A stretch of DNA of 21,737 nt from a virus: IMG/VR virus record IMGVR_UViG_3300021963_000745, positions 1-21,737 of that record; one strand, written 5' to 3'. The notes under the pieces are model-generated. The model saw nothing but the letters and a program-made list of their open reading frames with translations, was not told where the DNA came from and made no database searches. The position numbers were made by a program, and so were the translations under genes. Positions 2,476 through 15,800 of this stretch are shown in pieces (position 1 is the first letter of the stretch; each line of letters starts with the position of its first letter).

Positions 2476-4734
2476 TTAGTGAACTAGTGTTGATAAGCCT
2501 GTTTTACTAGAGTTCTTTACTTCTCGTTGCTGTTTAGCTGTTCCAAACGATTGCTTACGTAGGTCTTTAATAAACTTATCAATCTTATCAGAACCAGCAT
2601 TAGAAGAACCATTACCTATCATAGCTACTACATCAGCAGGAAGAACGTATTCATCCCTACTTAGCATAGCAATGTCAGGATTACCACCTTCAACTCTATA
2701 AACTACATTATCTGACATGCCATCACCAGCACCATCTACTCTGCCTTCATGGTAAGAGAGACTGCCACCTTCTTTAAAGGAGCCTTCTTCTTCTCTTTTT
2801 CTTTTTAAAGTAGCACTGTCTTGTTGACCATAACCACCAAAACTTTCTGTAGTTTTGTCTTTACCAAATGAATAATCATAAGCAGCTTTAGCATCTCTTT
2901 CATCAATAGCTTCTGGTGACATATCAGGACTAATAGCTTGTCCAACACCTCTGCCCATAGCAGTAATCCCCTTACCTACAGTAGGACCACCTAATACGTT
3001 TGATATAGTATTAGCCCATCCGATGCCAGGAGCAAATCCAAAGGCTACATCTAGTGCAGTAGCTATTGGGTTCTCTTTAGCATATGCTACTTTGTCTTCA
3101 ACATATCCTGTTATTAAACCAGCTAAACCTTTAGCTTCTGGTTCGGGAGGACCATACTGAGGACCGTAATCAGGATTAGCTATGCTACCGAAGCCTGGAT
3201 TGTTGTCTGGATCATAACTTTCGCCTAAGCCACCAAATCCTGCAACTCCTGTATTGTCAGGATCGGTACCGCCAAAGCCTGGATCGTTGTCTGGATCATA
3301 ACTTTCGCCTAAGCCACCAACTCCTGTATTGTCAGGATCGGTACCGCCAAAGCCTGGATCGTTGTCTGGATCAGAACCTGTACCAGTTCCAGTATCACCA
3401 GTGCCACCGCCGCCAGTGCCACCGCCGCCAGTGCCACCGCCGCCAGTGCCATCATTGCCGTCATTGCCGTCATCGCCGTCATCGCCATCAGAACCATCTT
3501 CTAAGTAAGCTACTTTACCACCTCCAAAAAGACCAATAAGGCCACCTGAAGAAGCTTCTCTAGGTGTATATGCATACTGAGAAAGAACTGGTTTACGTTT
3601 CTCATTTCCTAAGGCAATAGCTAATGCTTGTGCGCTAGATAAGGGAGCATCTTGTCCCTCTCCACCAGGAAGAAGTTCTCCACCAGTTAGAGTATAATCT
3701 TGAAATGTAGGAGGAGGTCTTGGTGCTTCCTTTTTATACTCAGGAGGTGTTAGAGCTAGTCCTAGTCCACCTGATATAGCTCCTTTAATGTAAGGTGTTT
3801 TACTGCTACCTAGAGTTTTAATATTTTCTAAAGAAGCTTCAGCTACAGACATATCTTTAGCAGCACCTTCACCAGCAGTTAACAAACCATATTTACCATT
3901 AGTAGCTTGAGCAGCTTGTGCATCTGTAAGCAGTTGGTTTTCTTTAAAATCTGGACCAACCATTGACGTAGAACCTTTAGTTACTCTAAAGCGTGTTCCA
4001 CTATCTATTGCTGTTTGGTCTGCTGCTAGTTTAGCATTAATACTTTCTGCCTTATCTGCATAATAGGGAGAAAGAGTTGCTGCATCTTGTGGCGGTAGGG
4101 ATAGGGAAGCATAGCCATCTGTAGCATCTGTAGCTGCTGTAGCACCATATTCGTTAAAACCAGCCTCACCACCAAAAGAACCATAATTGCCAGCATAGTT
4201 TGCTGCATCTGTTGCTATTGTTCCTGCTGCTGCATCTGATACTGCTGTTCCTGCCGCTCCCTCTAGTCCTGCTGTTCCTGACATTGCTTCTAAAGCTGGC
4301 CCTGAAGCTATAGAACCTATACCTGCTGTCCCTGCTGAAATAAGCCCACTCTTTAGAGCATCTTCTCCTGACTTTCCAATAAGTAAATTACCAGCCGTGC
4401 TACCTACACCGGCACCAATAGCACCAGCTACTGCTCCTCCTACTGTCCCTGCTCCTACTGAAGCCCCTAATGCAGTTCCAATTCCAGGAGCTACCATTGT
4501 TCCTGCAATTGCCAAGACAATAGGAAGAAGGCTACTAAGATTGAATGCTTCGGGTAGACCAGTATCAGGATTAATTGTCATTCTTCCTGTAGCGGCCATA
4601 GCACGAACTTCACTATCTGTCATATGGACAAGTCTAGTGTCGCCTTTACGCCCCTGTAATGCAAGAAGACTAGCTAATCCCCTAAATGGAGCTTCTGAGT
4701 TAGCCTTATACTGAGAACTAAGTGGCTGTTGCAT
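2476..4734 (-). CDS. Large Gly/Ala/Asp-rich virion protein, probable internal (ejected) structural protein, 752 aa
   Basis: I do not recognise a named family over the full length. Residues about 65-160 are a long hydrophobic Gly/Ala stretch (for example LPIVLAIAGTMVAPGIGTALG) that could cross or perforate a membrane, as expected of ejection proteins. Residues about 410-520 are low complexity: Asp/Gly (DGDDGDDGNDGND), three GTGGG units and 25-residue DPDNDPGFGG repeats. The C-terminus carries EGRVDGAGDGMSDNVVYRV and LSRDEYVLPADVVAMIGNG. This resembles the GPGTGTSD-x-I-PA-LS-x-GEYV-x-PA motif seen in many phage virion proteins. A second hydrophobic Gly-rich stretch lies near residues 550-600. 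The gene starts 6 nt after the preceding stop and ends 26 nt before the GNAT-like gene. A tape-measure-like role is an alternative. Confidence 0.8.
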   Translation of the reverse strand: MQQPLSSQYKANSEAPFRGLASLLALQGRKGDTRLVHMTDSEVRAMAATGRMTINPDTGLPEAFNLSSLLPIVLAIAGTMVAPGIGTALGASVGAGTVGGAVAGAIGAGVGSTAGNLLIGKSGEDALKSGLISAGTAGIGSIASGPALEAMSGTAGLEGAAGTAVSDAAAGTIATDAANYAGNYGSFGGEAGFNEYGATAATDATDGYASLSLPPQDAATLSPYYADKAESINAKLAADQTAIDSGTRFRVTKGSTSMVGPDFKENQLLTDAQAAQATNGKYGLLTAGEGAAKDMSVAEASLENIKTLGSSKTPYIKGAISGGLGLALTPPEYKKEAPRPPPTFQDYTLTGGELLPGGEGQDAPLSSAQALAIALGNEKRKPVLSQYAYTPREASSGGLIGLFGGGKVAYLEDGSDGDDGDDGNDGNDGTGGGGTGGGGTGGGGTGDTGTGTGSDPDNDPGFGGTDPDNTGVGGLGESYDPDNDPGFGGTDPDNTGVAGFGGLGESYDPDNNPGFGSIANPDYGPQYGPPEPEAKGLAGLITGYVEDKVAYAKENPIATALDVAFGFAPGIGWANTISNVLGGPTVGKGITAMGRGVGQAISPDMSPEAIDERDAKAAYDYSFGKDKTTESFGGYGQQDSATLKRKREEEGSFKEGGSLSYHEGRVDGAGDGMSDNVVYRVEGGNPDIAMLSRDEYVLPADVVAMIGNGSSNAGSDKIDKFIKDLRKQSFGTAKQQREVKNSSKTGLSTLVH
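3189..3373 (-). repeat. 75-nt tandem repeats encoding Asp/Asn/Gly-rich 25-residue units
   Basis: The unit beginning ctcctgtattgtcagg at 3246 recurs at 3321, exactly 75 nt (25 codons) later, with an essentially identical sequence. A diverged partial unit precedes it at 3189-3245. The encoded unit includes SYDPDNDPGFGG and TDPDNTGVGG. The second copy departs from the pattern after about 3373. Confidence 0.9.
3401..3490 (-). repeat. 15-nt and 9-nt tandem microrepeats (GTGGG and DGD/NDG units)
   Basis: Three perfect copies of gtgccaccgccgcca (3401-3415, 3416-3430, 3431-3445) encode Gly/Thr units. They are followed by four or five 9-nt units of the attgccgtc/atcgccgtc type (about 3451-3490) encoding alternating Asp/Asn and Gly. 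Both periods are multiples of three and preserve the frame of the 752-aa gene. Confidence 0.9.
4139..4216 (-). repeat. 78-nt dispersed repeat, copy A (in the 752-aa gene)
   Basis: This stretch is identical to 13678-13755 except for one base (c at 4165, t at 13704). It encodes 26 residues including AANYAGNYGSFGGEAGFNEY in the same frame in both genes. The flanking sequence is unrelated. Confidence 0.95.
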
Positions 4735-4740
4735 TTCTTG

Positions 4741-5001
4741 TTATGCTTTCTTTCTGTGCGAATTAATATAGTTAGATTGTTCATAAGTCATATCAGTAAA
4801 TACCGATGTATCCGGTCCCATATTCTTTTTCATCCCTTTAATAGAATCCTTAGCATAGGCCATACCCTCTCCAGTAGTAGCTCCAAAGTAAGCACCTCTA
4901 GGAGGAATAGTAATACCTCTATTGACGTTCTCAATGAACGTGCTATTCTGGATTAGATCAAACATCTTCTTGTAGTTATTATTATTATTATTATTAATCA
5001 T
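4741..5001 (-). CDS. Small phage protein, unknown function, 86 aa
   Basis: I do not recognise this protein. The frame is open upstream to 5073, but that part lies inside the preceding gene. I therefore start at the ATG at 5001, 1 nt after that gene's stop (TAA-G-ATG). This gives MINNNNNNNYKKMFDLIQ, where the run of seven Asn is encoded by an AAT microsatellite. The Met at 4965, after the microsatellite, is a possible alternative start and would give 74 aa. The rest is hydrophilic with a Gly-rich patch (GAYFGATTGEGMAYAKD) and a basic end (HRKKA). It lies between a 91-aa protein and the 752-aa virion protein in the tail/ejection region, so a structural or assembly role is possible. Confidence 0.68.
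   Translation of the reverse strand: MINNNNNNNYKKMFDLIQNSTFIENVNRGITIPPRGAYFGATTGEGMAYAKDSIKGMKKNMGPDTSVFTDMTYEQSNYINSHRKKA
4976..4996 (-). repeat. Trinucleotide microsatellite (TTA)7, read as AAT on the coding strand
   Basis: Seven uninterrupted TTA units on the plus strand lie a few nucleotides inside the predicted start of the 86-aa gene and encode poly-Asn. Confidence 0.95.
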
Positions 5002-5002
5002 C

Positions 5003-5278
5003 TTAATGTAATGCCGTCCAACCGGCTGGAGTTCTATAAACATACATTGTTTGGGCGCTTGTAGAAAATGCAATATCCCCTGGATTTGGCCTTGGTATAG
5101 TATTTATATCTAATACAGCATATACTTTATTAGCAGGAGAAGCAGCTAACTGAGCATCTCGTTGCTCTAGTAAAAACTTTAATTCACTAGTATACTGAAC
5201 TAGTTCATTATAAAGAACTTGAGGATTTGTTTTTTCTGCATCTCTAAAAAGAGATAGTTGTGGATATAGTGTAACCAT
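5003..5278 (-). CDS. Small tail-region protein, 91 aa
   Basis: The first half (QVLYNELVQYTSELKFLLEQ) looks like an amphipathic helix or short coiled coil. The second half (RPNPGDIAFSTSAQ, then MYVYRTPAGWTALH) has the P-x-x-GD-x-x-F-x-T ... Y-x-x-x-x-GW pattern of small beta-rich domains often found in phage tail or fibre-associated proteins. A coiled stem plus a small beta head would suit an oligomeric virion appendage, but this is inference. It starts 9 nt after the gp10-like gene and ends 1 nt before the 86-aa gene. Confidence 0.72.
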   Translation of the reverse strand: MVTLYPQLSLFRDAEKTNPQVLYNELVQYTSELKFLLEQRDAQLAASPANKVYAVLDINTIPRPNPGDIAFSTSAQTMYVYRTPAGWTALH

Positions 5279-5287
5279 TTCTTTTTT

Positions 5288-7156
5288 CTAACGCTTTCCA
5301 TCAGGTTGAATAGACATACGTGTAGCACCCATACGCCATCCTGTATTAACACCAGTAGACTCTAAACTAAAACTAGCCTGTCTACCTCTACCTCTAAAAT
5401 CTACTTTATCTGTTTCTGAACCAATTATAAATGGACCTTTAGTTATTGTATCACCATTTGGAAATTGCTTTAAGATAACAGAAAAAGATATTGTTCCATT
5501 CTTCAAGAAAAAGTCAGGAATAACACGATCAATAAACATTATCTCACCACCTTCATCAATATCAAAGTTAGCAGATTGAAGGAAAGAAGATACAGCAATA
5601 CCATCACCAGTATAGATAGATACTGGTTCATTATTAAAGAGATATGAAGTGCTGGTCTGGATACCAGTGGTTATAGTATTAGAGAATACAACAGAGTCTT
5701 CAAACGTAGTATAAAAAGTATCTCCAAAAACCCAATGATCTTCTAATATATTATAAATAACATAACGTGATGGTTCTTCTGAATCACTCCCAGGTATTAA
5801 CCAAATGACTTCGTTAAACTCACTATTAGTTCCAGCATAAACTTTATCACTCTGTGTTAAATTAAAATTATCAAATACATCTCTACGAATGGTACAATCT
5901 AAACGCTCTACTCTACCACTAAACCTATAGAAGTTATTCTGTGACATCCAATAAGGAACACCATCAGCAGCTACAGCAGCGTGTGGACCAACTAACCCAC
6001 AGTTAGTGCCTAGCTGTGTCTGGCTAAAAATAAAAGGAGGACCAACATACTGAAAAGCATATGCGGCACGATCAGTCCATACATGAATAGCATTTCGCGC
6101 ACGAATACCTCCTCTAATTTCAGTTCCATCAATAAGAACCAATTCACCGGATGTAGTAGAGACAGCAGGAACCCAATTAGTATAGTCCTCTTGATCGGAC
6201 CATCTTACAAGTAATGGGTTGTAGTTACCAGTTCCAAATTCAGTTGTTCCTAGTGCAAATACATGACGATCATTAGGAGATACTACAATAGCGTCAATAA
6301 TTGAAGGTGATGAACTAACAATAGTAGCTCTTTCAGGAGTTACACTAGCATCCGCATCCCAATAGAATAGCTGACTACCTCTACGAACTGCTAAGAGGTC
6401 TTCGCCCCAGTTGTCTAAGCTCCATTGATTAGCCTGAAAAGTAAATCCTGAAGATGAGGCTGCTACGTTCCATGCTCTCATTCCAGTAGTGGATACACCA
6501 GCATTATAGAAACTAGCACCAAAGCCAAGACCTTGGATACTGTTAGTCTGCTGTGTTGTTAATAACCTACCCATGACTGCATGACCAGAATTAAGAACTG
6601 TAGAAGAAGCTAGAACACTTACACCAAAGTAGAAGCTATTTAAACCATCAATACTTGTTACTCTATATGTTGGACCACCAAAGGCTGAAACAGCAAAGTT
6701 AGTTCCTAATGTAAAACCATTCAGAGAAGCATTACTAAATGTTAACCAATCACCAACACTAACACCAGAATTGGTTAAGCTGACATTGATCTGAGAAGAC
6801 CCTACACTAGTATTAAAGTTACCTGCTCCCGATACACCAGCATCAATAGATACTGTCTGAATAATAGGAGTAATATCGTAACTATAGTCATTCTCTGTAA
6901 GATATAGACGCTGTTCTGTGCCACTACTTAGTAGCTTCTCTGTGTCATTATTTATCCAACTTAGTAAGTCTCTAGCTGTGCCTAATAGAGGAGCTGCTAA
7001 AAACTTAGCATAGCCACGCATGTTTTCTGGCATACCAGCTCTAAAGCGAACTTTATCACCATTATACCATTTACCTTCTTCAGCATACTCAGTGGATTCC
7101 CGATGAAACCCAGGCTTGAATACTAGTTTAATTAACTTTGAACTACTACTCGGCAC
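5288..7156 (-). CDS. Tail hub/nozzle protein, P22 gp10-like (packaged DNA stabilisation protein)
   Basis: The 622-aa protein has the features I associate with phage stabilisation/tail-nozzle proteins. The N-terminus reads FKPGFHRESTEYAEEGKWYN then KVRFRAGMPENMRGY. It is followed by LLSWINNDTEKLLSSGTEQR and later beta-propeller-like strands with conserved turns (AIHVWTDRAAYAFQYVGPPF, GLVGPHAAVAADGVPYWMSQ, NFYRFSGRVERLDCTIRRDV). In P22 the gp10 ring closes the portal channel; T7 gp12 plays the equivalent role. Length lies between P22 gp10 and T7 gp12. The start codon is GTG at 7156, preceded by aaggaa about 13 nt upstream; no ATG lies nearby. It directly follows the second cupin gene. Confidence 0.85.
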   Translation of the reverse strand: MPSSSSKLIKLVFKPGFHRESTEYAEEGKWYNGDKVRFRAGMPENMRGYAKFLAAPLLGTARDLLSWINNDTEKLLSSGTEQRLYLTENDYSYDITPIIQTVSIDAGVSGAGNFNTSVGSSQINVSLTNSGVSVGDWLTFSNASLNGFTLGTNFAVSAFGGPTYRVTSIDGLNSFYFGVSVLASSTVLNSGHAVMGRLLTTQQTNSIQGLGFGASFYNAGVSTTGMRAWNVAASSSGFTFQANQWSLDNWGEDLLAVRRGSQLFYWDADASVTPERATIVSSSPSIIDAIVVSPNDRHVFALGTTEFGTGNYNPLLVRWSDQEDYTNWVPAVSTTSGELVLIDGTEIRGGIRARNAIHVWTDRAAYAFQYVGPPFIFSQTQLGTNCGLVGPHAAVAADGVPYWMSQNNFYRFSGRVERLDCTIRRDVFDNFNLTQSDKVYAGTNSEFNEVIWLIPGSDSEEPSRYVIYNILEDHWVFGDTFYTTFEDSVVFSNTITTGIQTSTSYLFNNEPVSIYTGDGIAVSSFLQSANFDIDEGGEIMFIDRVIPDFFLKNGTISFSVILKQFPNGDTITKGPFIIGSETDKVDFRGRGRQASFSLESTGVNTGWRMGATRMSIQPDGKR

Positions 7157-7160
7157 TTAT

Positions 7161-7451
7161 TTACTTTCTTTCCTTTATCTTTATATTCTTTTGAATATTT
7201 ATTACTCTACTATTAGGTTCTACAGCAATAAACTCATGGGCTTGATATGGCTTCCAGTCATAAATACGACCAAGAATTAATGGTATTTCCCATCCAATAC
7301 CTTTTGCTATAAATGAACCACGAGAGACAATAGAAATATGTATATTTTCTTCTGTATGTTCATGCATATTAAGGATATCTCCTACATCTTCAAAATCGTA
7401 GCAAATTCCTTTAAGATCTCCTACTTCAATAATAGAACTAAGCAATGACAT
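7161..7451 (-). CDS. Cupin-domain protein B, 96 aa
   Basis: This is a single-domain cupin (small beta-barrel). Motif 1 reads GDILNMHEHTEENIHISIV, giving candidate metal ligands His30, His32 and Glu34/35. Motif 2 reads WKPYQAHEFIAV with His72. The frame is open up to 7526, but that part overlaps the upstream gene by 89 nt, so I choose the ATG at 7451 (14-nt overlap). A TTG two codons on is an alternative. It pairs with cupin A at 8669-8995, with the same motif spacing and HISIV core, and each cupin closes a fibre-plus-small-gene set. Cupins bind sugars, acids or metals; an isomerase, glycan-binding or fibre-associated role could fit. The substrate cannot be read from sequence. Confidence 0.8.
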   Translation of the reverse strand: MSLLSSIIEVGDLKGICYDFEDVGDILNMHEHTEENIHISIVSRGSFIAKGIGWEIPLILGRIYDWKPYQAHEFIAVEPNSRVINIQKNIKIKERK

Positions 7452-7683
7452 CTGGGGGTGCTTGAACAATCTTGCTGCCAATTGGGGGCGGCGGGACATA
7501 AGGAGCAATAGGCCCATACATTCCATTCAAAATTTTACCATGTAGTATAACCCCATTTTTCTCTACATCATTACTACTTGCAGTAAATGGAACTGCATCG
7601 TGACCATACAACTTCAAAATACAATCTATCATTGATCTATCTTCTGAAGAAAATACTAAATTAGTAACTTTTTCTATATTCAT
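7438..7683 (-). CDS. Small protein after fibre 2, 81 aa, possible fibre-associated/assembly protein
   Basis: Sequence features are SSEDRSMIDCILKLYGHDAV, PFTASSNDVEKNGVILHGKI, then YGPIAPYVPPPPIG. The pattern of an ER-x-x-I-x-C strand, PFTAS-x-x-D, and a Pro-rich tail after YGPIA resembles small proteins I remember downstream of phage tail fibres, but I cannot name a family. It lies 12 nt after fibre 2 and overlaps the following cupin by 14 nt. The position mirrors that of the 76-aa gene after fibre 1, although the two show no clear sequence similarity beyond a Pro-rich end. A fibre chaperone or decoration role is inferred from context only. Confidence 0.72.
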   Translation of the reverse strand: MNIEKVTNLVFSSEDRSMIDCILKLYGHDAVPFTASSNDVEKNGVILHGKILNGMYGPIAPYVPPPPIGSKIVQAPPDVIA

Positions 7684-7695
7684 AATATCCTCTTA

Positions 7696-8652
7696 TTAAA
7701 CTGTTCTAATAAAAATACCAGTTCCATAATCATCACAACAGGTTGTAGCTGGAATATCACTTAATGACCTCCATGTTCCAGATGGTGTAGTTGTTCCTGT
7801 AATATTTATTCTAGCAATGTTTGATGATGCAACGTAAAATGCAGCATATCTTAAATCGCTACCAGCAATAGTTGCCCCTGGAGCATAAGCGGCATTTCCT
7901 ATAACACGAAATAAGCCTACTGCACCAACAGCTCCTAGAGCGGGTACAGGCACTGATCCTGTTAAATTAGTAGCATTAGTAGCACTAACGGCAAATGATG
8001 CATTGGTTGCAGATGTTGCAAAAGTTGCTGATACAGCATTGGTTGCACTAATGGCAAAGGATGCATTAGTAGCAGATGCTGCAAAGACAGCACTAACATT
8101 GGTTAAAGCAGCACCACTACCAGCGTATGAAGCAGCACTCACAATACCACTAAATACAGCAGATGTAGCACTTACAGTAGAAGTAACTACTCTATTAAAA
8201 GTTCCAATACTTGCAGTAATTGAGTTAACAGAGATGTCTGTCTCAACACCACCAAATTTATTAATATTAATACTGTCACAAGCTACCATCATGCCAGAAC
8301 CACTACTTACAACAGATACAGCCGTTCCACTTGGAGTCTTTACTGTAATACCAAAAGACCCAGAAGTGTTATTATATAAGAAATAAATCTTTTCTTTTTG
8401 TGGAATAGTAACTGTTACTGCTGCTGTTAGTGTTCCATCAAATCGAAGACCAAAACTTCTTGAAGTATCTGCTGAACCATTTTGGGTAGTAAGGCTTACA
8501 CCAGTGCTACTTACAGACACAATCTGATAACCAGCCACAGCAGTATCTAATAGATCAATAGTGTTCTGATTTAAGATTGCTCCCCAAGAGTTAGGATTCT
8601 CCCCATTCCCTTGAAGTTCTAATCTTAGACGGTCTGTGTAAGTGCTTGCCAT
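7696..8652 (-). CDS. Tail fibre / receptor-contact structural protein 2, 318 aa
   Basis: The N-terminus (MASTYTDRLRLELQGNGENP, NSWGAILNQNTIDLLD, AVAGYQIVSV) matches the N-terminal domain I know from many marine phage tail proteins, followed by strands such as LTAAVTVTIPQKEKIYFLYN and MMVACDSININKFGG. Residues about 165-230 carry Ala/Ser/Thr/Asn-rich repeats (FAASATNASFAISATNA), homologous at DNA and protein level to those of fibre 1. The C-terminal 75 residues are a distinct short tip (GSVPVPALGAVGAVGLFRVI ... TTCCDDYGTGIFIRTV). The gene lies 16 nt after cupin A. It is probably a shorter second fibre or side domain. Confidence 0.83.
   Translation of the reverse strand: MASTYTDRLRLELQGNGENPNSWGAILNQNTIDLLDTAVAGYQIVSVSSTGVSLTTQNGSADTSRSFGLRFDGTLTAAVTVTIPQKEKIYFLYNNTSGSFGITVKTPSGTAVSVVSSGSGMMVACDSININKFGGVETDISVNSITASIGTFNRVVTSTVSATSAVFSGIVSAASYAGSGAALTNVSAVFAASATNASFAISATNAVSATFATSATNASFAVSATNATNLTGSVPVPALGAVGAVGLFRVIGNAAYAPGATIAGSDLRYAAFYVASSNIARINITGTTTPSGTWRSLSDIPATTCCDDYGTGIFIRTV
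7970..8095 (-). repeat. Short fibre repeat block in fibre 2
   Basis: About two units of the Ala/Thr/Asn-rich fibre repeat are encoded here, one shortened. The stretch gcactaatggcaaaggatgc matches units in fibre 1 exactly or nearly so. Confidence 0.85.
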
Positions 8653-8668
8653 GGTTTAATTAAATCCT

Positions 8669-8995
8669 TTATTTTATTTTTTTCTTTATATATCTATTAG
8701 TCTTTTGAAGTGCTATGCACTCCACACCCTTTACTATATTTATAATCAAAGAATTATCTACGAGTGCAATAAATTCATGCGATTGATTAGGTCTAAAATC
8801 AACAACCTGACCTGCAATAACTTCGATTTCTTGTAACTTGCCTATTATCTTAAACTTCCCGTTTCCGACAATAGAAATATGCTCTGCTCCTGGCGCATGG
8901 TTGTGCATAGGAAGAGTATCCCCTGCGGCTGCGAACGTATAGATCGTCCCACTAATTCCGCCCATATCGAATTTCTTCAGAATTGGTTCAGCCAA
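8669..8995 (-). CDS. Cupin-domain protein A, 108 aa
   Basis: Cupin motif 1 reads GDTLPMHNHAPGAEHISIVG (ligand candidates His31, His33, Glu38). Motif 2 reads GQVVDFRPNQSHEFIALV (His73). The frame starts with TTG at 8995, overlapping the previous gene's TGA by 8 nt (TTGGCTGA), with GGAG about 11 nt upstream. The first ATG is ten codons further on and would cut into the N-terminal strand. Base composition changes inside the gene: by hand count 8881-8940 is 35/60 G+C, whereas 8821-8880 is 20/60. The change falls at the HISIV codons, which are identical over 15 nt in cupin B. This suggests a recombinant gene. The function is unknown; the location suggests a link to the fibre or its receptor glycan. 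Confidence 0.82.
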   Translation of the reverse strand: MAEPILKKFDMGGISGTIYTFAAAGDTLPMHNHAPGAEHISIVGNGKFKIIGKLQEIEVIAGQVVDFRPNQSHEFIALVDNSLIINIVKGVECIALQKTNRYIKKKIK

Positions 8996-9218
8996 CGACG
9001 AAGGCTCCGGTATCTACAGGGACAACTGTGTCTGGTGGTGCGACTGGAATCTCTACAATTTCCTTTGTGGCAGGATTATAGAAAAACAAATCCTGTTTGC
9101 ATGTGTCATCGCAAGCTACCCAGAATAAAGGCTCCGCGACTTCAAACTTCTCCACCGCAACTTCAGCGACACGATAGCCAGTTAAGACTTCTTCATTTAG
9201 GGAAATCAAAGCAAACAT
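8988..9218 (-). CDS. Small protein after fibre 1, 76 aa, possible fibre assembly protein
   Basis: The ATG at 9218 overlaps the fibre 1 stop (TGATG) and is preceded by ggaggag with 8-9 nt spacing, the clearest ribosome binding site in the region. The longer open frame to 9284 is therefore not used. The sequence VAEVAVEKFEVAEPLFWVAC, then YNPATKEIVEIPVAPP follows a pattern I recall from small proteins downstream of phage tail fibres (F-x-V-x-x-x-L-x-W-V-x-C, acidic, then a Tyr-rich strand and a Pro tail). Such genes often encode fibre chaperones or tip attachments. That role is an inference here. It lies in the GC-rich segment that also contains the fibre 1 tip. Confidence 0.78.
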   Translation of the reverse strand: MFALISLNEEVLTGYRVAEVAVEKFEVAEPLFWVACDDTCKQDLFFYNPATKEIVEIPVAPPDTVVPVDTGAFVVG

Positions 9219-11884
9219 CAGTAATACTCCTCCACAATAACGATACCCTGTGCGCCAGCGGCACCAACGCCTTCGATCCCACATCCGCCAGATTGTTTGC
9301 CGCCGCCGCCGCCACCGCCGCCATAAGTGCCACCCACACTACCCGCTTGAGCTACCGCACCACCCGCATTCGGACCACCCCTGCCGCCGCCACCCATTAT
9401 AGACGAACCGCCGCTGCCGCCAGTTGCCGCCCCGGTGCCAGCGGTATATCCCCCGCCAGCCCCGCCCTTGATGTTCACGCTGCCACTTGAACCGACGCCG
9501 CCAGCGCCGGGAGTAGAATCCGTTGCAGCCGCACCTGTCGTAGCTGAAGCATGTGTGCCATAAGATGAAGTCGCACCAGCCGCGCCAACCGTTACTGTCA
9601 CAGTTGCAATCGCCGTAACATCAACGTATTTTATTGATGACCCGCCAGCGCCACCGCCAGGGCCAGCGCCACCAGTGTATCCGCTACCACCGCCAGCAAC
9701 CACCGTGACCTTGACCGTCTTACAATTGGCTGGCCGGGTCCATGTGCTTGAACCAGTAGTGGTGAATACTTGCATGGTCGGCTGCGCGCCACCAGCCGCC
9801 TGGAAAGTTGGATCGACGCCAGCGCCGTTGCTGGTCAGCACTTGGCCGACCGTACCCGCAGTCGTGACTTGAATAGCCCCAGTCGCATTTCCAATCAGAA
9901 CGCCAGCATCTGTGAATGTCGCAGCCCCAGTGCCGCCACTCGCAACACCCAGGGCTGTAGATAAGGTGGTTGCTCCAGTCACCGCAAGAGTGCTGGAAAG
10001 AGTTGCCGCGCCGGAGGCGCTCAGTGTCGTAGCCGCAACCGCTGCGGGCGTAGTCGCTCCAACCGTTCCGTTGATGTTGATTGAAGCGGTGCCGGTCAGG
10101 TTGGTGACTGTGCCGGATGCGGGGGTGCCTAGAATTGCGCCGTTGCCCAGCGTTGCTACGCCAGTAACACCAAGGGTGCTGGATAAAGTAGTCGCCCCGG
10201 TTACGCCAAGGGTGCTGGACAAGGTTGCCGCACCGCTTGCACTCAGCGTAGTAGCACTAACAATACCACCAATTACATTGACTGCATTAGTAGCATTGGT
10301 TGCACTAACGGCAAAGGATGCATTGGTAGCTGATGCAGCAAAGGTTGCTGATACAGCGTTAGTTGCATTAGTAGCACTAATGGCAAAAGATGCATTGGTA
10401 GCAGATGCAGCAAAAGTTGCTGATACAGCGTTAGTTGCATTGGTTGCACTGATGGCAAAGGATGCGTTAGTAGCTGATGCAGCAAACACAGCACTAACAC
10501 CAGTTAGAGCAGCACCACTACCAGCGTATGAAGATGCACTGACAATCCCAGTAAATATAGCAGATGTTCCACTTACTGGTCCAGTAAATACAGCAGAACT
10601 TACTACAGTTAATTGGTTTACAGTAAAGGTTACAACAGATGTAGCAGCAGTGGCTGAAATACCTGTTAAATTGGCACCACTACCATAGAAAGAAGTAGCA
10701 CTTACTATACCACTAAATGTTCCACTAGTAGCACTAACAATACCGCCAATTACATTGACTGCATTGGTTGCATTAGTAGCACTAATAGCAAAAGATGCAT
10801 TGGTAGCAGATGCAGCAAAGGTTGCTGATACAGCGTTAGTTGCATTGGTTGCACTAATGGCAAAGGATGAGTTAGTAGCAGATGCAGCAAAGGTTGCTGA
10901 TACTGCGTTAGTTGCATTGGTTGCACTGATGGCAAAGGATGCGTTAGTAGCTGATGCAGCAAAGGTTGCTGATACAGCATTAGTTGCATTGGTAGCACTA
11001 ATAGCAAAGGATGCATTGGTAGCTGATGCAGCAAACACAGCACTAACACCAGTTAGAGCAGCACCACTACCAGCGTATGAAGATGCACTGACAATCCCAG
11101 TAAATACAGCAGATGTGCCGCTTACAGCAGCAGCAAAAGATGCTCTGTTTAAAACATAAAGATCATTAACAGTATAGGCGCTTACTGAAGTAGGAGCAGT
11201 TGGCAAATTAGTTAAATTACTACCATCACCATAATAAGCAGCAGCACTTACATTGTTGGTAAATGTTCCACTTGCACCAGAGATGTTACCTACTGCTTTA
11301 AACGCAGCCCCTACACTTAATACGCCATCAATGGCTGTGCCACCGACAACATGTAGCGTTCCAGTTATACTAGCAGCAGAATCAAGAGCAAGTGTACCAC
11401 CAATAAAATCAGCAGAACGAACAGTGGCAATAGATACACTAGTAGGGATTGATGCACTGACTACCTGCCCATAAGTATTAACTTGAAATTGAGAAACTGG
11501 CCCATAGCTACCGGCAGAAACACCAGATGTATTTAAACTAAATGTCGGATTACCTTCAGTACCAGTAGCATTTGAAATAGAGATACCATCACCAGCAGTA
11601 AGAGTTCTCCCATAAACATTACTAGCACTAACAGCTACAATACCTGTAACTCCAGTTAAATTAGCCATTGTATTAATAGTCGATGCAGTGGCTGTAAGGG
11701 TTACGCCATTAAACTGAATTGTCCCATTAATGTTCAGAGTGCTGCTACTTAATTGTAATGGAGAATTAGCTCCACTACCATCTTGAATAGTTTGTAATGA
11801 AGCACTTAAACCTACATTACCACTACCTACCTGTAACATCTGTAGATAAGTATTAGCAATCTTTTTTCCGGTTAGTGTAGCCAT
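9218..11884 (-). CDS. Tail fibre 1 with repeat shaft and polyglycine tip, 888 aa
   Basis: The N-terminal virion-attachment part starts MATLTGKKIANTYLQMLQVG and continues with IQDGSGANSPLQLSSSTLNI, a form common to marine phage fibres. Residues about 280-390 and 460-540 form a shaft of 24-residue repeats (FAASATNASFAISATNATNA). Residues about 545-720 switch to another repeat style (TTLSASGAATLSSTLGVTGA, ASGGTGAATFTDAGVLIGNA). The last 165 residues are glycine-rich: FTTTGSSTWTRP and VKVTVVAGGG, then many GGG runs, ending GAAGAQGIVIVEEYY. Such tips resemble polyglycine receptor-binding domains of phage adhesins (Salmonella phage S16 gp38 type, by analogy only). DNA encoding residues after about 545 is GC-rich (43/60 at 9301-9360 versus 23/60 at 10741-10800). 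This suggests an acquired tip. Confidence 0.88.
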   Translation of the reverse strand: MATLTGKKIANTYLQMLQVGSGNVGLSASLQTIQDGSGANSPLQLSSSTLNINGTIQFNGVTLTATASTINTMANLTGVTGIVAVSASNVYGRTLTAGDGISISNATGTEGNPTFSLNTSGVSAGSYGPVSQFQVNTYGQVVSASIPTSVSIATVRSADFIGGTLALDSAASITGTLHVVGGTAIDGVLSVGAAFKAVGNISGASGTFTNNVSAAAYYGDGSNLTNLPTAPTSVSAYTVNDLYVLNRASFAAAVSGTSAVFTGIVSASSYAGSGAALTGVSAVFAASATNASFAISATNATNAVSATFAASATNASFAISATNATNAVSATFAASATNSSFAISATNATNAVSATFAASATNASFAISATNATNAVNVIGGIVSATSGTFSGIVSATSFYGSGANLTGISATAATSVVTFTVNQLTVVSSAVFTGPVSGTSAIFTGIVSASSYAGSGAALTGVSAVFAASATNASFAISATNATNAVSATFAASATNASFAISATNATNAVSATFAASATNASFAVSATNATNAVNVIGGIVSATTLSASGAATLSSTLGVTGATTLSSTLGVTGVATLGNGAILGTPASGTVTNLTGTASININGTVGATTPAAVAATTLSASGAATLSSTLAVTGATTLSTALGVASGGTGAATFTDAGVLIGNATGAIQVTTAGTVGQVLTSNGAGVDPTFQAAGGAQPTMQVFTTTGSSTWTRPANCKTVKVTVVAGGGSGYTGGAGPGGGAGGSSIKYVDVTAIATVTVTVGAAGATSSYGTHASATTGAAATDSTPGAGGVGSSGSVNIKGGAGGGYTAGTGAATGGSGGSSIMGGGGRGGPNAGGAVAQAGSVGGTYGGGGGGGGKQSGGCGIEGVGAAGAQGIVIVEEYY
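10268..10500 (-). repeat. 72-nt tandem repeats in fibre 1, distal block
   Basis: About three copies of a 72-nt (24-codon) unit, for example starting at gcattggtagctgatgc, each encode FAASATNASFAISATNATNA with flanking Val/Ser. The sequence is nearly identical to the proximal block at 10760-11050. Confidence 0.92.
10760..11050 (-). repeat. 72-nt tandem repeats in fibre 1, proximal block
   Basis: About four copies of the same 72-nt unit. Both blocks are preceded by the same larger segment (SASSYAGSGAALTGVSAVFA) and followed by NVIGGIVSAT, so a unit of roughly 500 nt looks duplicated with different repeat numbers. Confidence 0.92.
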
Positions 11885-11893
11885 AACTTCCCC

Positions 11894-12175
11894 TTAAATT
11901 GTATTCCAATAAGCATCTTCATCTTCCCATAGAGAAGATGCAGCATTCCAACTCTGGTTGTCCCCAGTAGGAAAATTTGGTCTTGGGTCTTTAATGTATT
12001 CATCATCTCTTACATCCGGTGTCTTATTCTGTGGATGGTTCTTTAAATCGTTCTTTCCTTCATAGTCAGTAGGACATACTAGTAAACCATAACTGTTCCA
12101 TTTAAGAACACGATGTGGATACTGAAACCCACAGATGTCACATATAGCAATTGCTCTTTTGTCACTTGCTGGCAT
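11894..12175 (-). CDS. Small Cys-containing (degenerate zinc-ribbon-like) phage protein, 93 aa
   Basis: The sequence AIAICDICGFQYPHRVLKWN then GLLVCPTDYEGKNDLK has a Cys-x-x-Cys pair at residues 12 and 15 and a single Cys at 34 where a second CxxC would be expected (C-P-T-D). His21 and His47 might complete a metal site. The C-terminal part (DDEYIKDPRPNFPTGDNQSW) is acidic and probably extended. I recall similar small proteins just before fibre genes in marine phages. It ends 9 nt before fibre 1 and starts 9 nt after the gp4-like gene. The function is unknown. Confidence 0.78.
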   Translation of the reverse strand: MPASDKRAIAICDICGFQYPHRVLKWNSYGLLVCPTDYEGKNDLKNHPQNKTPDVRDDEYIKDPRPNFPTGDNQSWNAASSLWEDEDAYWNTI

Positions 12176-12184
12176 AATAACTCT

Positions 12185-12862
12185 TTATGGTAGGTTTAAT
12201 CTTGGAATAATTCTAAAGTTAACCCGTTCCCTATCTTCTTCCATAGCTCTAGCTAAACGCTCTTCATACTCCTGTTTCAAGAATTGAATACGTCCTCCTT
12301 CAATACCAGACCGCTTCATTGACATAAAGTAAGATAGTCCAGCAGTTAAACAAGGATAGAACCTACGTGAAATATCAGCAATCTGAACAGCAGACTTATT
12401 AACATCTTGAATATACTTGACCTGTTCAATCTTCAAAGAGTAGCCATCCTGATCTGGAATAGGCCATAGAAAGAGTTCTGGATTAGTTCTACTACGGCGA
12501 ATAGCATACTGAGTAGGACGACCAGTCTGTGACTTTCTAGGAATAATAGCATATTCTTCCATACTAATACGAGATAACTGAATGTCTACTCCTGAACTTA
12601 CATTAACAACAACTTCTAAAGTATCAATAGTGCTTGATGTTAAAGCATAGGCAGTAACACTAGTAGATACTGAAACTATTGTAGTATCCGTAGTCCAAAG
12701 AAGAACACCTCTATTCTGCCAATCCTGTAGCAACAAGTTAATTGATCGTCTAGCAGACTTAGGATCATGTCCCAAAGTCTGCTCGCCACCAATCATCTCC
12801 ATAGCTTCTTGGATTACTTCATCAATGTCAAGTGAAAAGTTGTAAGTTCCAGACGTAGACAT
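12185..12862 (-). CDS. Tail accessory factor, P22 gp4-like (tail tubular protein A type), 225 aa
   Basis: The N-terminal helix segment reads IDEVIQEAMEMIGGEQTLGH, followed by SARRSINLLLQDWQNRGVLL. This is the pattern I associate with gp4-like / T7 gp11-like proteins that sit under the portal ring and extend the DNA channel. The central beta strands include AYALTSSTIDTLEVVVNVSS, the conserved-looking turn GRPTQYAIRRSRTNPELFLW and the PIPD segment. Helices at the C-terminus (LKQEYEERLARAMEEDRERV) complete it. It fits with the gp10-like nozzle gene downstream and the adaptor upstream to give a short tail. Confidence 0.82.
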   Translation of the reverse strand: MSTSGTYNFSLDIDEVIQEAMEMIGGEQTLGHDPKSARRSINLLLQDWQNRGVLLWTTDTTIVSVSTSVTAYALTSSTIDTLEVVVNVSSGVDIQLSRISMEEYAIIPRKSQTGRPTQYAIRRSRTNPELFLWPIPDQDGYSLKIEQVKYIQDVNKSAVQIADISRRFYPCLTAGLSYFMSMKRSGIEGGRIQFLKQEYEERLARAMEEDRERVNFRIIPRLNLP

Positions 12863-12892
12863 TATTTAAAAAAACTACTTTCCCTTATATTC

Positions 12893-13117
12893 TTATTTGG
12901 CCTGTCGTTTACCAGTAGTGGACATCTGAGACATCTTTGCAGAGCCGTATTTCTTACGCCCAATGGAAGCAGCTAGTGCGGCAGGGTCTTCTACCCCTTT
13001 AGCCCGCAACCCCTTTGTAAGGGCTTTAAAACGCTCTCCAGAGCCTAGTTTACTAGCAGACTTCTTTACTTTAGGGCTTTTAGAAATTTCAAAACCAATA
13101 TTTGATCTAGTAATCAT
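12893..13117 (-). CDS. Small basic phage protein, 74 aa
   Basis: The protein is Lys/Arg-rich with a central conserved-looking segment (GERFKALTKGLRAKGVEDPA, then LAASIGRKKYGSAKMSQMS). I remember this LAA-x-IGR-KYG pattern from short proteins in the structural region of many phages, without a known function. A good ribosome binding site (aagggaag) precedes the ATG at 13117. It lies 10 nt after the 317-aa gene and 30 nt before the gp4-like gene. The charge suggests nucleic acid or virion-interior contact, which is inference. Confidence 0.8.
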   Translation of the reverse strand: MITRSNIGFEISKSPKVKKSASKLGSGERFKALTKGLRAKGVEDPAALAASIGRKKYGSAKMSQMSTTGKRQAK

Positions 13118-13127
13118 ATTCTTCCCT

Positions 13128-14081
13128 TTACCGCTGCTTTTTTAAGGCTTTACCAAAACCACGAATAGCAGCACCTACACCTCTTGGCTTTGACTGCTTA
13201 GGGGAAGAACTGCTTGATTTACTTTGGCCTTTGGCAATCATACCACCATGTTTTCTGTTTACTGTGCTGTTATTTAACCGACGATCACGGCGACCTTCTC
13301 TATCCTGATCTGGATATTCATACTTTACATTTTCTGAACCAAAGACATTTTCAAAAGGAGCGTCAAAGAATTTAGGTCTTTTCTTCTTATCAGTAGTATT
13401 ATCCTTAGTATCAGTCTTAGAAGAATCATTAGCCCTTACTACGTTAGGTGTAGCAGAAGCTATTACGTTATTAGTGGTAGTCTGAGAAGAATCATAAGGA
13501 TCATATTTAAATTCAGGAATACGAATATCTAGTCTTGCTTTATCATTACTTCTATTTTTGTAATCTTTTTCATCAATCTCATCACGCCTACGCTGAAGCT
13601 CTGCTCGTGAAAGCCGCTCTGTCTCCTCACTATTACCACTAGGAACACTATCAGGAGAAGAATCTAAAAGTTGAGGAGTAGCACCATATTCGTTAAAACC
13701 AGCTTCACCACCAAAAGAACCATAATTGCCAGCATAGTTTGCTGCATCTGTTGCTGGAGCATTTAAAGCATCATATGCCTGAGATACACCTGTTATAGCT
13801 GCGGTTCCCATAGCTTGTTTTATCATATCTGATTTTATGTTAGATGATACAAGATCATACCCTTTTGCTGCTACACCAGGACGGTATGCCGGATAAAGTT
13901 TAGGTAATAGAGAGGCTGTTTTTGCTGCTATACCAGCAGCTGCGCCTACTGGTGTAAGCCCTAAAACAGAAGCTAGAATCTCCTGTCTATTCTTTGCTTC
14001 ATCAGTATCTGAAAACTCATTCTGAGCTTCTACTTCGTATTCACTTAAGGCATTTTTAAGACTACCTGATCGACGAGCCAT
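13128..14081 (-). CDS. Hypothetical virion-type protein with shared C-terminal RG-motif module, 317 aa
   Basis: I choose the ATG at 14081 (MARRSGSLKNALSEYEVEAQ) because it overlaps the previous stop (TAATG); the frame is open 10 codons further upstream into the 147-aa gene. The early part has an Ala-rich segment (ILASVLGLTPVGAAAGIAAK). The middle contains a 26-residue stretch shared with the 752-aa protein through a 78-nt DNA repeat. The last 80 residues (KKKRPKFFDAPFENVFGSEN, RKHGGMIAKGQ, a Ser run, KPRGVGAAIRGFGKALKKQR) are nearly the same as in the 308-aa protein at 14874-15800. It appears to be assembled from modules shared by neighbouring genes. The function is unknown; a virion-internal role is possible. 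Confidence 0.75.
   Translation of the reverse strand: MARRSGSLKNALSEYEVEAQNEFSDTDEAKNRQEILASVLGLTPVGAAAGIAAKTASLLPKLYPAYRPGVAAKGYDLVSSNIKSDMIKQAMGTAAITGVSQAYDALNAPATDAANYAGNYGSFGGEAGFNEYGATPQLLDSSPDSVPSGNSEETERLSRAELQRRRDEIDEKDYKNRSNDKARLDIRIPEFKYDPYDSSQTTTNNVIASATPNVVRANDSSKTDTKDNTTDKKKRPKFFDAPFENVFGSENVKYEYPDQDREGRRDRRLNNSTVNRKHGGMIAKGQSKSSSSSPKQSKPRGVGAAIRGFGKALKKQR
13678..13755 (-). repeat. 78-nt dispersed repeat, copy B (in the 317-aa gene)
   Basis: Matches 4139-4216 with one mismatch in 78 nt, 9.5 kb away and in the same orientation and reading frame. Confidence 0.95.
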
Positions 14082-14524
14082 TATCTTCTTGCCTTTACAG
14101 CCTTTCCCCAACCGCGTTGAGCAGAGCCATGGATAGGAGAACCTACTCTGCCGCCTGAAGCTTGACTAACTTTCTCCATAGGACCAAGTTCTTTTATAAG
14201 TTGCTTAACTCGTTCTGGAGGAGCGCGTTTTAATACATCTTTTGCATAACTTTTTTCTTCTTCTGTAGCAGTAGACATATCTTTGTTAATACTAATTGCA
14301 TCATTAATGTCTGCATCAGTTGGAGGAAAAGTAGGCTTTAGTAAACCTCCTGAGTTTTTTAATGTTACAATAGGTTTAATGGGACTAATCTCTCCAATCA
14401 TTTCAGGGGAAGTAGGGTCAACGGTTAAATCATCTAAAGCTTCTAACTTATCTTTTACTGATGATTTAGGATTAGTTAAATCACTATGAGCTGATTTAAT
14501 TTTTCTAATAGATGGAATAGCCAT
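14081..14524 (-). CDS. Hypothetical small virion-type protein, 147 aa
   Basis: I do not recognise a family. It is Lys/Pro-rich with helical stretches (EEEKSYAKDVLKRAPPERVK) and ends in ASGGRVGSPIHGSAQRGWGK followed by AVKARR. That end is a variant of the GG(R/M) ... RG-W-GKA C-terminus found in neighbouring genes. The start ATG at 14524 has aaagga about 10 nt upstream. The stop overlaps the start of the 317-aa gene. The likely role is the same as the neighbouring proteins, but this is not known. Confidence 0.75.
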   Translation of the reverse strand: MAIPSIRKIKSAHSDLTNPKSSVKDKLEALDDLTVDPTSPEMIGEISPIKPIVTLKNSGGLLKPTFPPTDADINDAISINKDMSTATEEEKSYAKDVLKRAPPERVKQLIKELGPMEKVSQASGGRVGSPIHGSAQRGWGKAVKARR

Positions 14525-14873: not shown

Positions 14874-15800
14874 TTAGAGGGCTTTACCCCATCCACGAAT
14901 AGCAGCACCTACACCTCTTGGCTTTGAGCTATTACTTGATGACTGCTTGGGGGAAGAACTGCTTGATTTATTTTGGCCCTTAGCAATCATACCACCATGT
15001 TTTCTTTTTACTGACCGATCACGACGACCTTCTCTATCCTGATCTGGATATTCATACTTTACATTTTCTGAACCAAAGACATGTTCAAAAGGAGCATCAA
15101 AGAATTTAGGTCTTTTCTTTTTTTCAGTAGCATCATCAGCACCAGCACTATCAGCAAGTGCTTTCCTAACAAGCTCTCGACGCTCTGCACCATTACGAGC
15201 ATCCTGTGCATCCTGATTTGAAGCAAATGCGCCACCATCACCAGCATCAGAAGAATTGTCTTCCATAATAGGTCTACCTGCTCCACCACCTGCTCTTGGA
15301 ATGTTGCCTTCTTCTGTATCGCCATCTAGAAGATTAGCAAGACTTGCGCCAGCAATAGCGCCACCAGTAATAGCAGGGACATAATAGGTTTTTCTTTTTG
15401 CTGCTCCACTACCTGCTGTTGAAAGACCACCTGCTCCACCACCTGCTCCACCACCTGCTCCACCACCTGCTCCACCACCTGCTCCACCACCTGCTCCTGG
15501 ACGAACTGCTACTGCTCTAGAAGGACTAATTGCTACTGCTGTGCCAGTAGGACGAATTGCTACTGCTGTGCCTGGGGTCTTTACGGCTTCAGGCTTTAAA
15601 AATCCAGTAGTAGCTGCATTTTCTGCTTGATTTGGTCTAACAGAAGCAGCGGAAGTTGAAGCATCAGCAGTAGGAGGATTAACTTTTATAGCTGCTGCTT
15701 CTTTAGCTACTTGTGCATCATCAGCTCTTTGCTTAGCTTTTGATGCTTTAGGTAATTTTATCTTTTTACCAACTTCTTTGATTAGTTTTCCTACTGTCAT
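14874..15800 (-). CDS. Hypothetical virion-type protein with Gly/Ala repeat and shared C-terminal module, 308 aa
   Basis: The N-terminus is basic (GKLIKEVGKKIKLPKASKAK). The middle holds Pro/Ala/Val repeats (TGTAVAIRPTGTAVAISPSR) and a long GAGGGAGG run, then the short hydrophobic ITGGAIAGASLANLL. The C-terminal 80 residues (KKKRPKFFDAPFEHVFGSEN, RKHGGMIAKGQ, KPRGVGAAIRGWGKAL) are almost the same as in the 317-aa protein, so the two are partial paralogues. The ATG at 15800 has aaggaa upstream with a long spacer. It lies between the head-tail adaptor and two very small genes. The function is unknown. Confidence 0.75.
   Translation of the reverse strand: MTVGKLIKEVGKKIKLPKASKAKQRADDAQVAKEAAAIKVNPPTADASTSAASVRPNQAENAATTGFLKPEAVKTPGTAVAIRPTGTAVAISPSRAVAVRPGAGGGAGGGAGGGAGGGAGGGAGGLSTAGSGAAKRKTYYVPAITGGAIAGASLANLLDGDTEEGNIPRAGGGAGRPIMEDNSSDAGDGGAFASNQDAQDARNGAERRELVRKALADSAGADDATEKKKRPKFFDAPFEHVFGSENVKYEYPDQDREGRRDRSVKRKHGGMIAKGQNKSSSSSPKQSSSNSSKPRGVGAAIRGWGKAL
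15431..15490 (-). repeat. 12-nt tandem repeat, five copies, encoding Gly/Ala
   Basis: Five perfect copies of ctgctccaccac, with partial units on both sides (about 15427-15496), encode the GAGGGAGGGAGG run. A shorter partial block recurs at about 15278-15295 in the same gene. Confidence 0.93.

Follow-up and report, generated by a model that had tools for sequence, protein, structure and literature searches.

Why does a fibre gene of an AT-rich phage turn GC-rich towards its tip, and which of the genes behind it share that history? The window studied here is a whole virus record of 21,737 bp, in which the minus strand encodes the major genes, a phage structural module. A nucleotide search of the window against named phages gave no match, and no tRNA landmark was found within it. 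The phage is a marine or estuarine podovirus related to HTVC023P-type pelagiphages, with a major capsid protein 48–55% identical to those of phage DSL-LC04, pelagiphages HTVC023P and HTVC027P and Roseobacter phage CRP-901, and, as in these phages, with a tail adaptor gene that precedes the fibre. Multigene transfer of metabolic genes has been described for HTVC023P-type phages, and the text of that paper, when searched, did not mention tail fibres, cupins or cassettes (PMC9599517).

The locus comprises a first unit of three genes, fibre A (9218–11884), smA (8988–9218) and cupin A (8669–8995), followed by a second unit in which fibre B, smB and cupin B are arranged alike (Table 1). The original prediction, made from the letters alone, read the GC-rich segment at 8881–10250 as a likely exchanged host-range cassette that carries the fibre tip, the small gene and the N-terminal half of the cupin, all three probably acting together in receptor recognition.

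Table 1. Features of the two fibre units, with positions in the window
Feature	Position	Strand	Evidence or remark
Fibre A N-terminal anchor and shaft, resident	10253..11884	-	Fourfold-site GC 0.17; DNA identity to siblings L182/L183 95–99%
GC-rich shaft linker (TLSASGAATLSSTLGVTGATTLSSTLGVTG), common to both alleles	10152..10250	-	Junction alignment
Fibre A C-terminal part (tip), exchanged	9218..10152	-	No sibling counterpart except a 68-bp second linker, 9926–9993
Gly-rich tip domain, Pfam PF21722 Gly_rich_2	9230..9763	-	Fibre residues 708–885; E = 7.6e-7
smA, 76-aa small protein	8988..9218	-	Start overlaps fibre stop (TGATG)
Cupin A, cassette part, residues 1–92, TTG start	8719..8995	-	Conserved H31, H33, H39, H73
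Resident leader DNA, read as last ~15 cupin A codons	8669..8718	-	Near-identical to sibling non-coding DNA
Fibre B of second, unexchanged unit	7696..8652	-	Siblings 95–100% identical
smB, small protein of second unit	7438..7683	-	PHROG tail-fibre matches
Cupin B, second unit	7161..7451	-	Probable start 7451; open frame reaches 7526

The block itself is real. The GC profile is not smooth, with 300-bp values of 0.33–0.43 outside and 0.59–0.66 at 9151–10200, and the hand counts behind the prediction are correct at 9301–9360 (43/60), 8881–8940 (35/60), 10741–10800 (23/60) and 8821–8880 (20/60), the exception being 8701–8760, which has 18/60 and not 19. The shift is a synonymous-site effect: GC at fourfold-degenerate sites goes from 0.15 outside to 0.51 within roughly 10247–8840, and by part it is 0.17 in the N-terminal part of fibre A, 0.53 in the tip, 0.39 in smA, 0.44 and then 0.32 along cupin A, and 0.12 in fibre B. 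When fitted to these sites, a change-point model with two boundaries puts the edges at 10247 and 8840 with a log-likelihood ratio (LLR) of 63.8 (maximum of 14.6 over 300 permutations). The compositional left edge, 10223–10346, agrees with the predicted start just after NVIGGIVSAT, and the right edge is soft by composition (8936–8759).

Composition alone might account for the step if the DNA were resident and Gly/Ala-rich adhesin tips simply needed GC-rich codons. The tip is about one-third glycine, and a short Gly-repeat stretch at 3385–3459, in a gene that is otherwise GC-poor, also reaches a fourfold-site GC of 0.50. However, the synonymous shift extends into smA and the cupin, neither of which is Gly-rich, and of the 20 complete fibres that share the anchor, 17 have no comparable rise and stay GC-poor to their ends (end values 0.05–0.20). 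The three of these 20 that do have a large jump are the window allele, the sibling allele and L264; in two open-ended fibres (L026 and L039), GC rises too, with unrelated tips. Because the 17 stay GC-poor to the end, the step is not a glycine-codon artefact, and the notion of a purely compositional origin, barely credible, is refuted by sibling alleles whose gene content differs here.

These siblings, the contigs L182 and L183, were found by a search with the fibre anchor, come from two metagenomes, have anchors 99% identical and belong to the same species as the window phage. These 97–98% identical siblings match the window at 95–100% identity over roughly 3500–8718 and at 91–99% over roughly 10160–13264, and differ from it over exactly the cassette stretch, where overall homology is absent (about 10,152 to 8,718). 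In this slot, they carry a different Gly-rich tip, an unrelated small protein (MDRYAIIDGSDVINVIEYDA..., YAII-type) and a 69-aa lipoprotein-like ORF that replaces the cupin, which is replacement by unrelated sequence and not point hypervariation; the second unit (fibre B, smB and cupin B) is the same in both alleles. As the siblings match both flanks but lack homology between them, the idea of an exchanged cassette was correct, and tip, small gene and cupin are carried together in the exchanged interval. A further contig, L084, has the window allele and is identical over 10,903 bp spanning both junctions, although it and the window may be non-independent samples. Elsewhere in the window, at 13265–13778 and 15132–15796, L182 and L183 again have no aligned sequence; these two gaps lie in or near repeat-bearing genes (13128–14111 and 14874–15800).

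All of these sequences are metagenome contigs, and the shaft linkers are repeated and common to several phages, as would suit an assembly chimera in which reads from a GC-rich phage had been joined to an AT-rich one at repeats. We regard such a chimera as very improbable, given that L084 is 100% identical over both junctions, that the alternative allele occupies the same position in two contigs from two metagenomes, that the linkers of unrelated phages are just 72–85% identical, and that, of the two joins, the left is in frame and the right lacks a shared repeat. The block is, with high probability, a recombinationally exchanged tip-end host-recognition cassette (Gly-rich tip, smA and cupin) of an HTVC023P-related podovirus.

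Comparison of the alleles also moves the borders of the exchange. On the left, the alleles are near-identical through NVIGGIVSATTLSASGAATLSSTLGVTG and then diverge within the next TLSSTLGVTG repeat, at 10200–10150, so that the GC step at 10250, which had been taken as the edge of the swap, is shared by both alleles up to about 10200–10150. Since the step is common to both, a GC-rich tip had been joined to the shaft earlier, and the step predates the swap seen here. Linker-like DNA with the identities given above occurs in many unrelated phage contigs, which makes the shaft linker region a plausible crossover site.

On the right, homology between window and siblings resumes at GCATAGC (8718), at codon 93 of cupin A, placing the junction near the cupin C-terminus and not, as proposed, inside the gene at HISIV. 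The cassette consequently includes 92 of the 108 codons instead of the N-terminal half alone, and the last ~15 (codons 94–108; IALQKTNRYIKKKIK) come from in-frame reading of resident leader DNA. The NIxKG with which related cupins end lies at about residue 90, and in the model of cupin A the predicted local distance difference test (pLDDT) score is 57–58 over residues 91–108 and at least 89 in every earlier 10-residue block. A hybrid cupin, with an N-terminal half exchanged along with the tip and a resident C-terminal half joined at HISIV, would agree with the fall in GC near 8880 and with the HISIV motif that cupin B shares, but is hardly tenable: the siblings have no cupin at all in this place, homology returns only at about 8718, and the C-terminal half of cupin A is nearer to the foreign cupin of L085 (63%) than to the resident cupin B (50%). 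By the alignments, cupin A was exchanged whole. Its origin by local duplication of cupin B was considered and rejected, cupin A being 39% identical to cupin B versus 55% to L085; in a cupin tree, the two fall into different groups, with weak support. The gene apparently starts at TTG (8995), and the homologous overlap in L085 has a GTG start codon that is lost in the window.

The cassette most likely derives from phages whose synonymous sites are richer in GC, and it sits between the resident fibre anchor and shaft and the resident second fibre unit, with crossovers in the shaft-repeat linker (10200–10150) and just inside the 3′ end of the cupin gene (~8718). A search for a donor of the tip returned the identical contig as its only relative, and no close donor was found for the other two genes, the best foreign matches being 60% for the cupin and 53–64% for smA. 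The nearest taxonomically labelled whole triad is on a Comamonadaceae metagenome-assembled genome (MAG) contig, with a cupin identity of 55%.

The match of the tip to PF21722 clears the Pfam cut-off. Gly-rich tip adhesins are familiar from the gp38 type of phages T2 and S16, and the two are alike in having a Gly-rich distal domain that ends a long fibre, whereas the window tip belongs to the fibre as its C-terminal domain and is matched only to PF21722. Homologues of smA lie directly downstream of a Gly-rich tip at all loci where this is visible (14/14), and across 35 cupin-bearing cassettes there are six unrelated small-protein families, each with one tip class. With tip classes hand-assigned beforehand, the mutual information between tip class and small family is 1.68 bits, compared to a permutation maximum of 0.77. 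Because class and family pair so consistently, the small gene appears to be the cognate partner of the tip, travelling with a given tip type.

What smA does is suggested by its position, its pairing with the tip and weak structural matches, from which it is probably a cognate tip assembly chaperone or cap. Its model is beta-rich, with a pLDDT of ~94 over residues 1–58. A fold search in the PDB returned nothing significant and no solved relative, a profile search of Pfam and PHROG matched no family, and among viral structure models there was one weaker match, annotated as a tail assembly chaperone. That fibres and cognate chaperones are exchanged as modules between distant phages is established for Alteromonas phages A5, V22 and P24, where, as here, a small gene immediately behind the fibre is transferred along with the fibre C-terminus between otherwise unrelated phages (PMC10579305). 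In that case, the phages compared are of different families and the chaperone carries DUF4376 (PMC10579305), whereas the window has an smA without Pfam or PHROG family, a cupin in the cassette, two alleles in one species and a GC step.

Joint inheritance had been taken to imply probable joint action of all three genes in receptor recognition. This stands for the tip and its small partner, whose pairing recurs widely, but is weaker for the cupin, which follows many unrelated tip and small-protein pairs: in dozens of phages it is found behind small proteins of six or more families, and the smA family also occurs without it. The cupin, the less expected part of our result, is by these loci a conserved third gene of fibre cassettes that has been little described. 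Its family is barely covered by PHROGs, and a search of open-licence papers for cupins and tail fibres gave nothing that describes a cupin within a fibre cassette.

Residues 1–90 of cupin A have a predicted cupin fold (E ~1e-5 and TM 0.58–0.70 against small metal cupins), and its Pfam match, to Cupin_2, is weak and below the cut-off. Four histidines are invariant in the family; of the canonical motif 1, G(X)5HXH(X)3-4E(X)6G, the HxH is invariant, the Glu is not conserved and an invariant His lies one position later. Small metal cupins such as TM1459, KdgF and the cellulose oxidative enzyme 9bwf have the same fold, with HxH and a distal histidine, but are only 18–23% identical to the window cupin, which has its third His at HxH+6 instead of the usual position and is a phage fibre cassette gene. 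The cupin is probably a metalloenzyme; with low confidence, it may be a cytosolic metalloprotein that serves fibre maturation. We infer that it serves fibre cassettes in general as a metal-binding accessory and is not a tip-specific receptor binder.

A C-terminal tail common to unrelated small proteins (PxVIA/PTVI) was considered as a cupin-docking peptide and rejected: the identity of its codons (GTCATTGCTTA) from family to family is due to their overlap with the start of the cupin gene (ATG TCA TTG CTT, MSLL), which places the constraint at the DNA level. Small genes that are unrelated to one another run into the cupin start through a near-invariant overlap (ATGTCATTGCTTA) in L284, L285, L287, L290, L293, L310 and L320 and at 7438–7451 in the window, and this overlap may reflect either translational coupling or a recombination joint.

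Other genes can occupy the third slot. A 2OG-Fe(II) oxygenase, which, like the cupin, is of the double-stranded beta-helix fold class, follows smA in L089, L091 and L092 and probably also in L095, and elsewhere there are lipoprotein-like or signal-peptide small proteins (L182, 5220–5429; L266–L277, upstream of fibre B). Third-slot genes might instead be receptor-tied factors of the infected cell, for example for superinfection exclusion, and be inherited with the tip for that reason. A lipobox-like LLASC in the sibling slot ORF and the genes with a signal peptide or lipoprotein-like features that separate the small gene from fibre B in L266–L277 point in this direction; still, we consider it improbable, as the cupin has no signal peptide and, sitting behind many tip types, shows no evident receptor matching. 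Another reading, speculative and rather unlikely, is that in many aquatic phages the small metal-dependent cupin encoded by the third gene modifies the fibre tip or its partner and is functionally interchangeable with the 2OG-Fe(II) oxygenases of the same slot.

The likeliest mechanism is recombination within the shaft repeats, by which the distal end of the fibre is traded along with its folding partner and a single accessory gene; this would alter what the fibre binds and spare the virion-attaching anchor. Such a swap would be expected to change adsorption specificity and host range. One uncultured phage species thus offers two complete host-recognition cassettes in one slot, with borders directly placed to within tens of bases, a clean natural experiment. 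Should the fibre indeed be modified by the cupin, or by the oxygenases found in its place, enzymatic fibre modification would be a general and exchangeable part of host recognition, and the view of adsorption specificity in marine phages would change.
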